A program made the position numbers and the translations under genes. A DNA stretch of 64,000 nt from an uncultured Actinomycetes bacterium (GTDB lineage: Bacteria > Actinomycetota > Acidimicrobiia > Acidimicrobiales > RAAP-2), in contig CAIYAP010000002.1 in NCBI GenBank assembly GCA_903924205.1, positions 62,001 to 126,000 on the forward strand. The letters run 5' to 3'. The notes under the pieces were generated by a model. That model worked only from the letters and a program-made list of their open reading frames with translations. It ran no database searches and had not been told where the DNA came from. Shown in pieces: positions 47,289 through 52,835 of the stretch. Positions within the stretch are counted from its first letter, which is position 1. Each line of letters starts with the position of its first letter.

Positions 47289-47423
47289 CACGCGACGTTG
47301 AGCATAGAAAGAATTCGTGTCCGTGCGGAGTGAACGATGTTCGACCTTCCCCCTTTTTCTTCTACCCCGTGCTTACACTTGGCGCGACGCCTGTCGTCAC
47401 CCCAATGGATCAAAGGAGATTCA

Positions 47424-48128
47424 ATGTTACGAAAGATTGCCGCCGAATTCATCGGCACCGCCATATTGGTTTTCATCGCGTGCGGCGTCGCCGTCCTCAC
47501 TCTCGGAAGCTGGCACTCTGGCTTCGGCGTGGGCGCGGGCATCATCGCCACCTCACTGGCCTTCGGCCTGGTGTTGGCCGGTCTCGCGTACGGGCTCGGC
47601 CCCATCTCGGGCTGTCACGTGAACCCCGCGGTGACCTTGGGTGCATTACTCGCCGGAAGAATCGGCATCAATGATGCACTTGGATACTGGGTGGCCCAGT
47701 TCGCCGGCGGTATCGCCGGCGCGGGACTTCTCGATGCCATCTTTCGCTCCAGCCCGGACTGGACGACCTCCATCGGTCTTGGTGCGGACGGTTTCGGTAG
47801 TGCGTCGATGATCCACATCTCTGCCACTGGCGCCTTCCTGACGGAAGTCATTCTGACGGCGATCTTCGTCTTCGTGATATTGGTCGTCACCGGCAAGAAC
47901 GGCCCAACCGCTGTCCCCGGCCTCATCATTGGCTTGACTCTCACCGTGGTTCACCTTTTCGGTATTGCCGTGACAGGAACGTCGGTAAACCCCGCTCGAT
48001 CATTTGGACCGGCCCTCCTTCTCGGCGGAATCGCCCTTCACCAGGCGTGGCTTTTCATTATTGCCCCGCTGGTGGGTGGCGCCGTCGCGGCGATGACGCA
48101 TCGCCTCTTGAAGGCTGACGCCCAATAG
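47424..48128 (+). CDS. Aquaporin (MIP family, AqpZ-like)
   Basis: 234 residues from ATG 47424, six bases after AAAGGAGA; an upstream ATG in frame lacks a ribosome site and would extend into non-homologous sequence. Both NPA motifs are intact (NPAVTLGALL, NPARSFGPAL) and the second carries the pore Arg (NPAR), so a water-selective channel is likely. Followed by a strong terminator and a convergent tRNA-Arg. Confidence 0.92.
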   Translation: MLRKIAAEFIGTAILVFIACGVAVLTLGSWHSGFGVGAGIIATSLAFGLVLAGLAYGLGPISGCHVNPAVTLGALLAGRIGINDALGYWVAQFAGGIAGAGLLDAIFRSSPDWTTSIGLGADGFGSASMIHISATGAFLTEVILTAIFVFVILVVTGKNGPTAVPGLIIGLTLTVVHLFGIAVTGTSVNPARSFGPALLLGGIALHQAWLFIIAPLVGGAVAAMTHRLLKADAQ

Positions 48129-48446: not shown

Positions 48447-49676
48447 TTAGCTGGCCGTTACCACCACGCAGTTGTCACCCGAACCGTCTAGTCCGTGGTT
48501 CTTGCTGAATTTGGCAGTGTTCGAGCCCGATATTGATATGGCCGAGCTGAGCGTCACGTTCAAAGATCGAAGTTGGGTCGTCAGGAATTGAGCCGCGGCA
48601 TTGGCGCGAGCCAGACTGAGCTGACTCGGTGCGCCCGGATTGGCGTAGCCGTGGATCGAGAGCGTCGTGTAGCCCTGAGCCTTCATCGCTGTGGCCTGTG
48701 CAACCAACTGAGTCTTGATGGCCACCGACAGAATTGATCGTCCATAACCAAAGTTGCCGACGTTACTGACGCTGCACATAGTGAAGGGATCAATTTCGAC
48801 CGCGCCATTGCCTCGTCCCGAATGCCCCTTCCACTCAGTTGACACATTGGTGGCGTTCGAGGCCGCAAAACCAGAACCGCCGCCGCCGCCACTTCCCGAG
48901 TCGTCACCCCACATCGGCATCCCCATCATGCTCGAGCCGCCGCCGCCGCCGCCGCCGAAGTAGCCACCGCCACCACCGCCACCGCCTTCGCGACCGGTCG
49001 AGCCGCCAGCTCCTCCGTTACCGCTGGTACCAGCCGTTCCCGGTGCGTTGGGGTCGCCAACGCCGCCCGCGCCACCCGCCATCAGAGTCCCGCCATCGCC
49101 TCCCGAGGCATTTGAACCCATGCCATACGTCGTGGGGTCACCAGCAGCGCCAGGTTGATTCACATTTCCGCCAGCGCCACCCACTGGATCTGCATCAAGG
49201 GCACCAGCACCACCACCACCGCCCGCAATGACGAGTGCCGACGTTCCGTCATAGACGCCCGACAGACCGCCGCCGCTGCCCGACGCCCCCGTTCCCGCGC
49301 CACCGCCGCCGTAGACGGCACCCGGGGTGTTACCGCTGTAACCGATGTACCCAAAACCACCGATCGAGCCCACCACTACCGAGAGTGTTGAGCCCGGCGT
49401 GACCAGTACGGTGGCGGAGCCAACGCCACCGACACCGCCAAGACCGCCGTTGTAGTCCGTTCCACCCTCGCCGCCGGCGACGTAGATCGTGACAGCGCAG
49501 ACATTTGACGGCACGGCGTAGGTCTGGCCAGAACCGGTGTAAGAGAATGAGGTGCCGGCAGGCAAAGTCGCTGCCGACGAGGCCAAGGGGGAAAGAATTC
49601 CCTCCGCGCCCAACAGGGCCATCGCAGCGATGGCGCCCACTGCCGACCTTTTCAATGCGAAACGAAGTCTTAACAT
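48447..49676 (-). CDS. Exported Gly-rich protein with C-terminal OmpA-like domain
   Basis: 409 residues. A signal peptide is followed by a short N-terminal beta part (SFSYTGSGQTYAVPSNVCAV), a very glycine-rich stretch to about residue 285 with runs such as GGGGGGGG, and a C-terminal segment resembling OmpA/MotB peptidoglycan-binding domains (TTLSIHGYANPGAPSQLSLARANAAAQFL, ending near Cys-Val-Val). A polyglycine-plus-OmpA layout is uncommon in a Gram-positive. AGGGAGAG precedes the ATG. It faces the ice-binding gene across a roughly 385-base gap. Probably wall-attached; function unknown. Confidence 0.78.
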   Translation of the reverse strand: MLRLRFALKRSAVGAIAAMALLGAEGILSPLASSAATLPAGTSFSYTGSGQTYAVPSNVCAVTIYVAGGEGGTDYNGGLGGVGGVGSATVLVTPGSTLSVVVGSIGGFGYIGYSGNTPGAVYGGGGAGTGASGSGGGLSGVYDGTSALVIAGGGGGAGALDADPVGGAGGNVNQPGAAGDPTTYGMGSNASGGDGGTLMAGGAGGVGDPNAPGTAGTSGNGGAGGSTGREGGGGGGGGYFGGGGGGGSSMMGMPMWGDDSGSGGGGGSGFAASNATNVSTEWKGHSGRGNGAVEIDPFTMCSVSNVGNFGYGRSILSVAIKTQLVAQATAMKAQGYTTLSIHGYANPGAPSQLSLARANAAAQFLTTQLRSLNVTLSSAISISGSNTAKFSKNHGLDGSGDNCVVVTAS

Positions 49677-50061: not shown

Positions 50062-50685
50062 ATGTCCACGGTCGGCCGTCGAGTTTCTGGCTTGTCTTCA
50101 CTTTCCCAACAATCTCTGGTCGATCACAATCCGCGGCGACACGGACGTCGTATCGCACTTTCGACAGGCGCCGCGTTGTCACTAGTGGCCGCTGGATCAT
50201 TGGCGACTGCGCTTTTTGCGTCCCCCGCTTTCGCCGTCCCCAGTTCGGTGGACCTGGGTTCAGCTACCTCGTATGCCGTCATAGGAGGTAGCACCATTAC
50301 CAACACCGGACCTTCCGTGATCACGGGTGACCTCGCGCTCGATCCGGGTTCGGCCGTGACTGGTTTCCCACCGGGAACGATTACCGGGGCCACCAACGTA
50401 TCGAACGCTGCTTCCTTGGCAGCCCAGGGTGACGTCACCACCGCGTTTAACGATGCGGCTGGGCGTAGTTCCACCATGTCGATTAGCGCAGACCTCGCCG
50501 GGAGCACGTTGACGCCGGGCGTCTACACCGCCTCCAGCAGCATGGCGCTCAGTGGCGCTCTGACACTCAATGGTCAAGGTAATCCTGATGCCGTTTTCAT
50601 CTTTCAGGCTGGCTCAACGTTGACAACTCACTCGGGGAGCAGTGTCATTCTTGAAGATGGCGCACAGGCGTGCCACGTCTTTTAG
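50062..50685 (+). CDS. Ice-binding (DUF3494) exported protein, stopped early by in-frame TAG
   Basis: 207 residues from ATG 50062, five bases after AAGGA. A long signal peptide (basic, then ALSTGAALSLVAAGSLATALF, cleaved after AFA) is followed by the DUF3494 fold: DLGSATSYAVIGG, ITGDLALDPGS, AASLAAQGDVTTAFNDAA, TLTPGVYTASSS, NPDAVFIFQAGSTL, ILEDGAQACHVF. The frame then hits TAG at 50683-50685, where family members have Trp (VFW-Q-VGSSA). The same frame continues as intact sequence, so the stop is an apparent nonsense change, a read-through site or a sequencing error. Made as is, the protein would lack the end of the domain and its wall anchor. Confidence 0.82.
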   Translation: MSTVGRRVSGLSSLSQQSLVDHNPRRHGRRIALSTGAALSLVAAGSLATALFASPAFAVPSSVDLGSATSYAVIGGSTITNTGPSVITGDLALDPGSAVTGFPPGTITGATNVSNAASLAAQGDVTTAFNDAAGRSSTMSISADLAGSTLTPGVYTASSSMALSGALTLNGQGNPDAVFIFQAGSTLTTHSGSSVILEDGAQACHVF

Positions 50686-51069
50686 GAAGTTGGTTCGTCC
50701 GCAACCATTGGCACCACCACCTCCTTCATCGGCACGGTTCTCGCGCTCACTTCCATCTCGCTCCTCACGGGCGCCACTGTTCAAGGTCGCATGCTTGCTC
50801 GCAACGGAGCCGTGACCTTGGATACGAACACCATCACCGTTCCTACCTGCGCGGTCCCGACGAGTTCGACCACTGAATCGTCAACAATCCCCACTGGACC
50901 ACCGGCGACGGGTTTCGGTGGTGCAGCTCCCCACAGCAGTGCGTTCCTGCGTGACCTGACAGTGTCGGCGACGGCAATATTCGTGACGAGCGCCATTGGT
51001 GCCGTCGCGATGCAGCGTCGGCAGACTCGCCGTGCTCGCCACCTCTTTTCCAAGAGCCGTGGCCGCTAG
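50686..51069 (+). pseudogene. Detached 3' part of the ice-binding gene with sortase-sorting signal
   Basis: Directly after TAG 50685 the same frame reads EVGSSATIGTTTSFIGTVLAL, then GATVQGRMLARNGAVTLD and NTITVPTC, the expected end of a DUF3494 domain. After it comes a Thr/Ser/Pro linker, PPATGF (50899-50916; an LPxTG-like motif), a hydrophobic helix (about LTVSATAIFVTSAIGAVAM) and a basic tail (RRQTRRARHLF). This is a complete cell-wall sorting signal. Codon use and frame are intact over 127 codons, arguing that the break is recent or conditional. The following gene is a sortase. Confidence 0.82.
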
Positions 51070-51691
51070 GGCGGCACTGAGCGCGAGCGGCCGTCTGGGC
51101 ATGATCTCGGCCCTCGCGCTGCTGACGGCAATTCTGGCCGCCACCGCAGAGTCTCGAGACGTAGGTTCAGCCACCACCATTCCCCACTACCCGCCCGTAA
51201 ACGTGGGGACCTTGTCAGCCCATTCGCCCCTGCCACAGCGGTCACCGCCCGTCAGGCTCATCATTCCCGCACTTCACATGTCAACGAAAGTGAGCTCACT
51301 CGGCCTCACCGCGACGGGAGAAGTACAGGTTCCCTCCACCGCCACCACCGTGGGCTGGTACCGCTGGGGATCGACTCCCGGTCAGCGGGGTGCCGCAGTT
51401 ATTTTGGGGCACGTCGACTCGTATCTGGGCCCCGGTGTCTTCTATCACCTAGATCGCCTTGTTCCCGGGCAACAGATACGGGTCGTTCTGGCCAATGGCG
51501 AGTCAGTCCGGTTTCGAGTTATCCGAATTCGCGAATATCTCAAAACGGCGTTTCCGAATCGCTTGGTATATCTCGCCGCTCGTGGGCGATGGCTGAATTT
51601 AGTGACCTGTGGCGGAAAATTCGATCGCGCGACTGGGCATTACCTCTCCGACATCGTCGTCTTCACGTCCTACGTCTCGATGCAGCGTTAG
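51059..51691 (+). CDS. Class F sortase
   Basis: 210 residues from GTG 51059 (ATG 51101 is an alternative), overlapping the end of the ice-binding frame. A hydrophobic N-terminal anchor (MISALALLTAILAAT) and a Pro-rich linker lead the sortase barrel: RLIIPALHM, GWYRWGSTPGQRGAAVILGH with catalytic H118, and LVTCGG with nucleophile C184, followed by Arg in KFDRATGHY. Class F sortases in actinobacteria anchor LPxTG-like proteins to peptidoglycan; the adjacent PPATG protein is the obvious substrate. Confidence 0.9.
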   Translation: MAARAALSASGRLGMISALALLTAILAATAESRDVGSATTIPHYPPVNVGTLSAHSPLPQRSPPVRLIIPALHMSTKVSSLGLTATGEVQVPSTATTVGWYRWGSTPGQRGAAVILGHVDSYLGPGVFYHLDRLVPGQQIRVVLANGESVRFRVIRIREYLKTAFPNRLVYLAARGRWLNLVTCGGKFDRATGHYLSDIVVFTSYVSMQR

Positions 51692-52142: not shown

Positions 52143-52835
52143 CTACTTCTCCTGAGGTTGTTGAGCGGGATACAGCACGAGAGCGAGACCTAGACCGACC
52201 AGCGCTCCCAGCACTTGAGCTCCGATGAAGGCGGGTGCTGATGAGGGGGCGATTCCGGCGAAAGTATTCGAGAACATTCGACCCACCGTGATCGCGGGGT
52301 TCGCGAAGCTGGTGGAGCTCGTGAAGAAGTAAGCCGCACCGATGTAACACGCCACCGCCGCGGCGCACAGCTCGGAGCGATGCGAACGTGTCAGAGCAAA
52401 GATCGTGGCAATGAGCCCTGCGGAGGCAATCACTTCCGACACGAGATGTGCACCCGTCGCCCGCTGATGCGTGGAGATCGATATTGCCGCCTGGGCAAAC
52501 ATCACGTTTGCCGTGACGGCTCCGCTCACGCATCCGGCCACCTGGGCGATGAAATACGTCGGCACGTCAGACCACTTGAGTGAGCCCGTGACCGCGCTCA
52601 CGCCACTGACCAGCGGGTTGAAATGTGCCCCCGAGACCGGGCCAAAGACGTTGATGAGTACGTAGAGGCCCACCGCCGTCACCGCCGCGTTTTCGAGAAG
52701 CTGAAGTCCAATATCCGTGGGCGATAACTGCTGGGCCGCAATGCCCGAGCCAATCACGATGCAGGCCAACAGCGCACTGCCCACGTATTCAGCAAGCAGG
52801 CGTCGAGAGAGGGTCGGCCAGGGCGACGTCGTCAT
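52143..52835 (-). CDS. Aquaporin-type channel of the ars cluster (AqpS-like)
   Basis: 230 residues, six transmembrane helices of the MIP fold. The first NPA is changed to NPL (HFNPLVSG) and the second is intact (FANPAITVG) but lacks the Arg that follows it in water channels (here Ile). Those changes suit passage of a larger neutral solute such as arsenite. Located between ArsC and the ArsI-like gene; in Sinorhizobium an ars-operon AqpS releases arsenite made by ArsC, and the same role fits here. Some annotators may call it an ArsB-less exporter. Confidence 0.88.
   Translation of the reverse strand: MTTSPWPTLSRRLLAEYVGSALLACIVIGSGIAAQQLSPTDIGLQLLENAAVTAVGLYVLINVFGPVSGAHFNPLVSGVSAVTGSLKWSDVPTYFIAQVAGCVSGAVTANVMFAQAAISISTHQRATGAHLVSEVIASAGLIATIFALTRSHRSELCAAAVACYIGAAYFFTSSTSFANPAITVGRMFSNTFAGIAPSSAPAFIGAQVLGALVGLGLALVLYPAQQPQEK

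Follow-up and report, generated by a model that had tools for sequence, protein, structure and literature searches.

How should an in-frame stop codon be read when it falls inside a conserved domain and the frame behind it stays open? The question is raised by one gene in the window, the stretch of 64,000 nucleotides of actinobacterial DNA analysed here. A frame of 335 codons on the forward strand (50062-51069, with its ATG at 50062) is interrupted by a TAG at codon 208, after which 127 codons remain open in the same frame up to a terminal TAG (51067-51069). The product of the complete frame is an ice-binding protein of the PF11999/DUF3494 family with a PPATG-type sorting signal (Table 1). The original prediction offered three readings of the internal TAG: a recent nonsense mutation, an assembly error and programmed read-through. 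We weighed these against the relatives of the gene, its source genome and structure models of its product.

Table 1 Features of the interrupted ice-binding gene and the adjoining sortase gene, in window positions
Feature	Position	Strand	Evidence
First 207 codons: signal-peptide-like N terminus and first three quarters of the DUF3494 domain	50062-50682	+	PF11999 positions 1-156
In-frame TAG, codon 208; Trp in 86 of 87 relatives	50683-50685	+	
Continuation of 127 codons and stop: remainder of the domain, Thr/Ser-rich linker, sorting signal	50686-51069	+	PF11999 positions 159-208
PPATG sorting motif, codons 280-284, inside GPPATGFGG	50899-50913	+	
Hydrophobic stretch of the sorting signal and Arg-rich tail	50962-51066	+	Hydropathy scan; modelled helix 311-333
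Class-F-like sortase gene	51059-51691	+	Pfam Sortase, E = 1.5e-16

The domain runs directly across the stop, as the segment before it matches the Pfam profile over positions 1-156 of 208 (E = 1.2e-36) and the segment after it over positions 159-208 (E = 3.9e-15). Taken together, the two segments cover profile positions 1-208 (E = 4.2e-58) with a single TAG inside. Ahead of the domain, roughly codons 1-58 look like a signal peptide when read by eye. The domain is followed by a linker rich in Thr and Ser, by the sequence GPPATGFGG and by a hydrophobic stretch with an Arg-rich tail, so that the frame ends with the PxTG motif, hydrophobic stretch and basic tail of a sortase substrate. The tail matches the NF058571 sorting domain only weakly (21.5 bits, under the cut-off of 29), and the helix modelled in it has block means of 58-79 pLDDT. 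Pfam and the hydropathy scan thus bear out the predicted arrangement, in which a DUF3494 domain is cut by TAG at codon 208 and the next 127 codons complete it and add the PPATG motif, a hydrophobic stretch and a basic tail. This sorting signal would be made only if the stop were absent or read through. The length of the open stretch means little by itself, because 42 of 401 sampled open reading frames (ORFs) have as much in-frame open sequence past their own stops, some of them probably owing to a neighbouring gene; homology that continues across the stop, by contrast, is beyond chance. The source genome (G000; 1.66 Mb in 7 contigs) has one PF11999 match, and a DNA search of that genome with the ice-binding region returned one match, the region itself.

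The original prediction also held that relatives carry Trp where this gene has TAG, and alignment confirmed it. Across 91 compared loci, column 208 holds 89 Trp, one Leu (in a distant relative) and one stop, the window's own copy. With that copy and three known duplicates set aside, Trp occurs in 86 of 87 loci, Leu in one and a stop in none, and all 41 loci that share one alignment with the window have Trp in this column. The closest relative (L032, CAISIU010000085.1, which contains the G093 locus), a metagenome-assembled genome (MAG) of an uncultured actinobacterium, has TGG at this column and 83% protein identity. Its neighbourhood is the same, with a Gly-rich gene on one side and sortase, arsenate-reductase-like and aquaporin-like genes on the other. 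The TAG is therefore a disabling change relative to intact homologues, the mark of a pseudogene.

A survey of the genus gave 58 PF11999 matches in 55 of 99 genomes, and only two genomes are listed as having matches with internal stops: the source genome and, in one piece of its match, G098. In the latter (L220, G098:C17:9500-14000) the gene is a frameshifted relic: its two pieces, 72 and 77% identical, lie in different frames and lack the ends, but Trp is still present at column 208. None of seven other genes of the window locus, the sortase included, was matched in the 4.5 kb read around this relic. The remaining 44 of the 99 genomes, many of them incomplete, have no PF11999 match. Both the relic and these 44 genomes make loss of the gene plausible. 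A separate break was seen in locus L002 (genome G002), where the ice-binding domain and a GAPQTGFGG signal lie in different frames, with the frame changing where a repetitive Thr/Pro linker begins; either this is a second genome that has lost the link between domain and anchor, or the assembly slipped in the repeat.

If the stop were old, the sequence behind it should have drifted. We compared the gene with L032 by Nei-Gojobori counts, which give rough values here since dS is near or above 1. The part of the domain before the stop (codons 58-207) gave dN 0.065, dS 1.36 and dN/dS 0.048, and the part after it (codons 209-258) gave dN 0.019, dS 0.83 and dN/dS 0.023. Elsewhere, codons 1-57 gave a ratio of 0.220, the linker and tail one of 0.146 and the sortase one of 0.167. 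The post-stop part of the domain was thus held as tightly as the pre-stop part through most of the period after the divergence from L032, which agrees with the claim that the downstream part is undamaged and means either that the stop is recent or that its effect is avoided. With 26 outgroup sequences to assign changes to branches, codons 209-260 show one amino-acid change on the window branch and none on that of L032. About 44 nonsynonymous changes would be expected without constraint over the whole branch (some 106 sites times half of 0.83). The count observed was one, with a 95% upper limit of 4.7, and the age of the stop would then be under about one tenth of the branch. In the tail, the same outgroups assign nine changes to the window, three to L032 and leave seven unassigned (9 of 12, P = 0.15). 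We also took the columns at which the window and L032 differ while 22 or more outgroups are in agreement: codons 75, 92, 190, 196, 199 and 269 depart in the window only, 74 and 318 in both, and none in L032 only. The six window-only departures, which exclude the stop itself, give P = 0.03 but were picked after the fact; they are a weak hint of some relaxed constraint before or around the stop.

A single-base change inside an open, constrained frame is also what an error looks like. The TAG could stem from a wrong consensus base, or from a variant of a minor strain chosen by the assembler, with the gene intact in the population, and the setting lends this some weight: the genome consists of 7 contigs, its completeness is estimated at 97.48%, and several named relatives are titled as MAGs. 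We looked at how often genes of this assembly are broken by comparing ORFs of G093 with 864 kb of this genome. Before filtering, 79 of 250 ORFs had stops, mostly in frames opposite to or overlapping others. The comparison then kept non-overlapping ORFs whose differences were mostly at third positions and whose best match covered at least 60% of the query, a threshold that undercounts badly broken genes. Of the 142 genes retained (50,348 codons), six had stops. In four of these the stops lay only ahead of the well-conserved part, as over-long start calls give; another (L183 2458-2952) shows high identity up to its stop, yet an ORF with a weak, sub-cut-off DUF3040 match is found opposite it. The ice-binding gene alone has a clear interior nonsense codon, and none of the orthologues of the 142 genes was flagged as frameshifted in this genome. 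The reverse comparison accepted 139 genes, five of them listed with stops in G093. The assembly is not littered with errors, and we regard an error or minor variant at this one base as unlikely, though it is an explanation to be taken seriously. A codon-usage scan for interrupted genes in 464 kb was of no help: the initial version detected no interrupted gene, not even the ice-binding gene, and the loosened version returned 23 of 1,158 pairs, in 22 of which an ATG or GTG lay no more than 15 codons from the stop, and missed the gene again.

What would the truncated product be? We built a full-length model with the stop read as Trp, which represents the read-through form and not the form predicted by the DNA. 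It has a mean pLDDT of 81.2, with block means of 96-99 over residues 61-260, and 20 strands, seven of which start after codon 205. The best 25 rows of a structure comparison are all ice-binding or antifreeze proteins of the DUF3494 type (Z 31.2-37.3, aligned over about residues 57-263). The whole fold, a beta-solenoid with a bracing helix, is shared with PDB 6eio, 7bwx and 7bwy (Z 36.5-37.3, rmsd 0.7-0.9 over 201-209 residues), the highest score being to 7bwy. At the sequence level, 6eio matches with E = 3.3e-56 and has Trp at the codon 208 column; the window gene differs from these solved proteins in having TAG at the Trp column and a C-terminal sorting signal. In published descriptions, the DUF3494 fold is a solenoid that is discontinuous and has a helix as its brace (PMC9957290, PMC12337378).

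On the full-length model, the truncated protein would lose seven of the 20 strands, the first in part, along with the whole anchor, and the domain left behind would probably be unstable or inactive. An AlphaFold2 model of the truncated form is nevertheless a confident solenoid (mean pLDDT 82.2, block means of 92-97 over residues 61-207), and this could be taken to favour a shortened protein that works, a secreted, unanchored ice-binding protein newly arisen by truncation. AlphaFold2 is insensitive to truncation, and as a test of function the model cannot separate a working from a broken protein. Against a functional short form, the solved DUF3494 relatives include the missing segment in their fold, and this segment was constrained as strongly as the one that is kept. 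Moreover, none of 30 other genus loci ends inside the domain, a sample that comprises the best-scoring 30 of the 58 matches and is biased to whole genes; a weaker match outside it, in G015, covers profile positions 1-183 only. We consider a functional truncated protein very improbable.

In the third reading, the TAG is read through, by programme or by tolerance, so that a minority of the protein is full-length and anchored to the wall and the majority is short and secreted. The downstream frame, open and constrained, is the one feature of the gene that favours this, and a recent stop explains it; the intact sortase next door can also be counted in its favour. The stop itself is not conserved, as TAG occurs in none of the 87 relatives, in contrast to what programmed read-through would predict. 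Nor does the genome appear equipped to decode it. The 45 tRNA genes found in a genome 97.48% complete, of which some 2.5% may thus be missing, include Trp CCA, Gln CTG and TTG and Tyr GTA anticodons and no CTA anticodon. Release factor 1, which reads UAG, is present (463 bits, cut-off 423), and the pyrrolysine synthetase model gave only a sub-cut-off match (19.6 bits against 178.15). TAG ends 127 of the 401 stop-ending ORFs in a 464-kb sample and is therefore a normal terminator here, so a genome-wide sense reading of TAG is in practice excluded. The RNA from the stop onwards folds no better than shuffled sequences (z = 0.13 over 100 bases and 1.21 over 60 bases). A terminator-like hairpin just ahead of the TAG (50658-50675) is within chance, with two such sites against 1.7 expected in the stretch. 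The predicted switch between a secreted and a wall-bound protein also fails at its short end, because a product that lacks seven strands would not be a clean secreted isoform. Read-through of this kind is hardly credible, and a variant in which near-cognate tRNAs give low-level read-through, leaving mostly short secreted and a little wall-anchored protein in a species-specific switch kept by selection, is if anything harder still to credit. Among the matches listed in searches of the literature on read-through and on ice-binding pseudogenes, nothing resembled this case.

The three readings originally offered have thus fared differently: read-through finds no support, an assembly error keeps some probability and a recent nonsense mutation fits the evidence well. 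We conclude that the TAG is probably an ordinary, very recent nonsense mutation that causes loss of function. A point mutation would have replaced the conserved Trp at codon 208 by TAG in this genome, and translation would most likely end there. The resulting DUF3494 protein would lack the end of the solenoid together with the linker and sorting signal. Such a protein could not be anchored by a sortase. The stop probably also lowers translation of the sortase, because the sortase gene starts before the ice-binding frame has ended. The case resembles bacterial nonsense pseudogenes as reviewed (PMC11078800) in its premature stop, its intact homologues, the single match in the genome and the more decayed relic in a related genome (G098); it is unlike them in that the window gene has no further decay yet, so the TAG may be an allele that still segregates, or an error. 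As a further nonsense allele or a single erroneous base in one genome, the stop itself matters little; it would matter only if the TAG were decoded.

More interesting than the stop is its setting, a pairing of ice-binding gene and sortase across the genus. The sortase gene next to the ice-binding gene, which the original prediction did not include, is intact and overlaps the end of the ice-binding frame by 11 bases. The overlap is the same in L032, and the start codon chosen is the one common to both. Candidate His, Cys and Arg residues are present by eye. The assignment to class F is by likeness only: NF033748 was the best of three families listed, at 152 bits under its curated cut-off of 166. 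The ice-binding protein resembles sortase-anchored surface proteins in its PxTG-type motif, hydrophobic stretch, basic tail and adjoining sortase gene, and differs from them in that its motif is GPPATGFGG and not LPXTG or LAXTG, the motifs given for classes A and E (PMC5148588).

The pairing was read in 30 genus loci besides the window (L002-L031), the best-scoring of the 58 PF11999 matches. In three (L005, L013 and L015) a contig edge lies past the domain, and of the 27 that remain, 22 have a relative of the window sortase downstream on the same strand. Among these 22, G-x-P-x-T-G-(F/Y/L/E)-G is in frame in 21, L002 having its motif in another frame. The five loci with no sortase match in the 1.1-1.25 kb or so downstream have G-x-P-x-T-G-A-G-G in four cases and LPHTG in one. 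Motif and sortase are associated (Fisher's exact test, 7e-5, for 22 and 4 loci), in a post hoc test that ignores kinship, counts L002 by its out-of-frame motif and leaves out L023. Two loci outside the 30 depart from the rule: L047 (Pseudonocardia) combines GHPETGAGG with a downstream sortase match, and L048, with GAPKTGEGG, shows no such match in 2.5 kb. The rule thus holds at best within the genus.

In the source genome, a second sortase on another contig (C7:189718-190071) is a stronger match (113 bits) and perhaps serves LPxTG proteins on other stretches; a scan of 864 kb found two proteins with LPxTG tails. The same 864 kb contained no PxTGFGG tail other than that of the ice-binding protein, and this, with the adjoining position, suggests that the window sortase may be dedicated to the ice-binding protein. 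A scan of viral contigs with the sortase found no relative, and none of the papers in the library searched mentions DUF3494, ice-binding protein and sortase jointly. The genus may therefore be one in which a neighbouring, perhaps dedicated, sortase puts an ice-binding domain on the wall, a testable case of ice adhesion by anchoring for which this locus would offer a natural loss-of-anchor allele.

Several further genes lie around the pair. Divergent from the ice-binding gene, on the reverse strand, a Gly-rich protein of 409 amino acids (48447-49676) looks secreted by eye and matches only a Pfam glycine-rich domain (E = 8e-6); its gene is whole in L032 and has 89% identity over the part present in L029. 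An aquaporin-like gene (47337-48128) matches Pfam MIP, and a second, recognized by eye (52143-52835), completes a pair that flanks the region. Beside the latter lies an arsenate-reductase-like gene with sub-cut-off NCBIfam matches.
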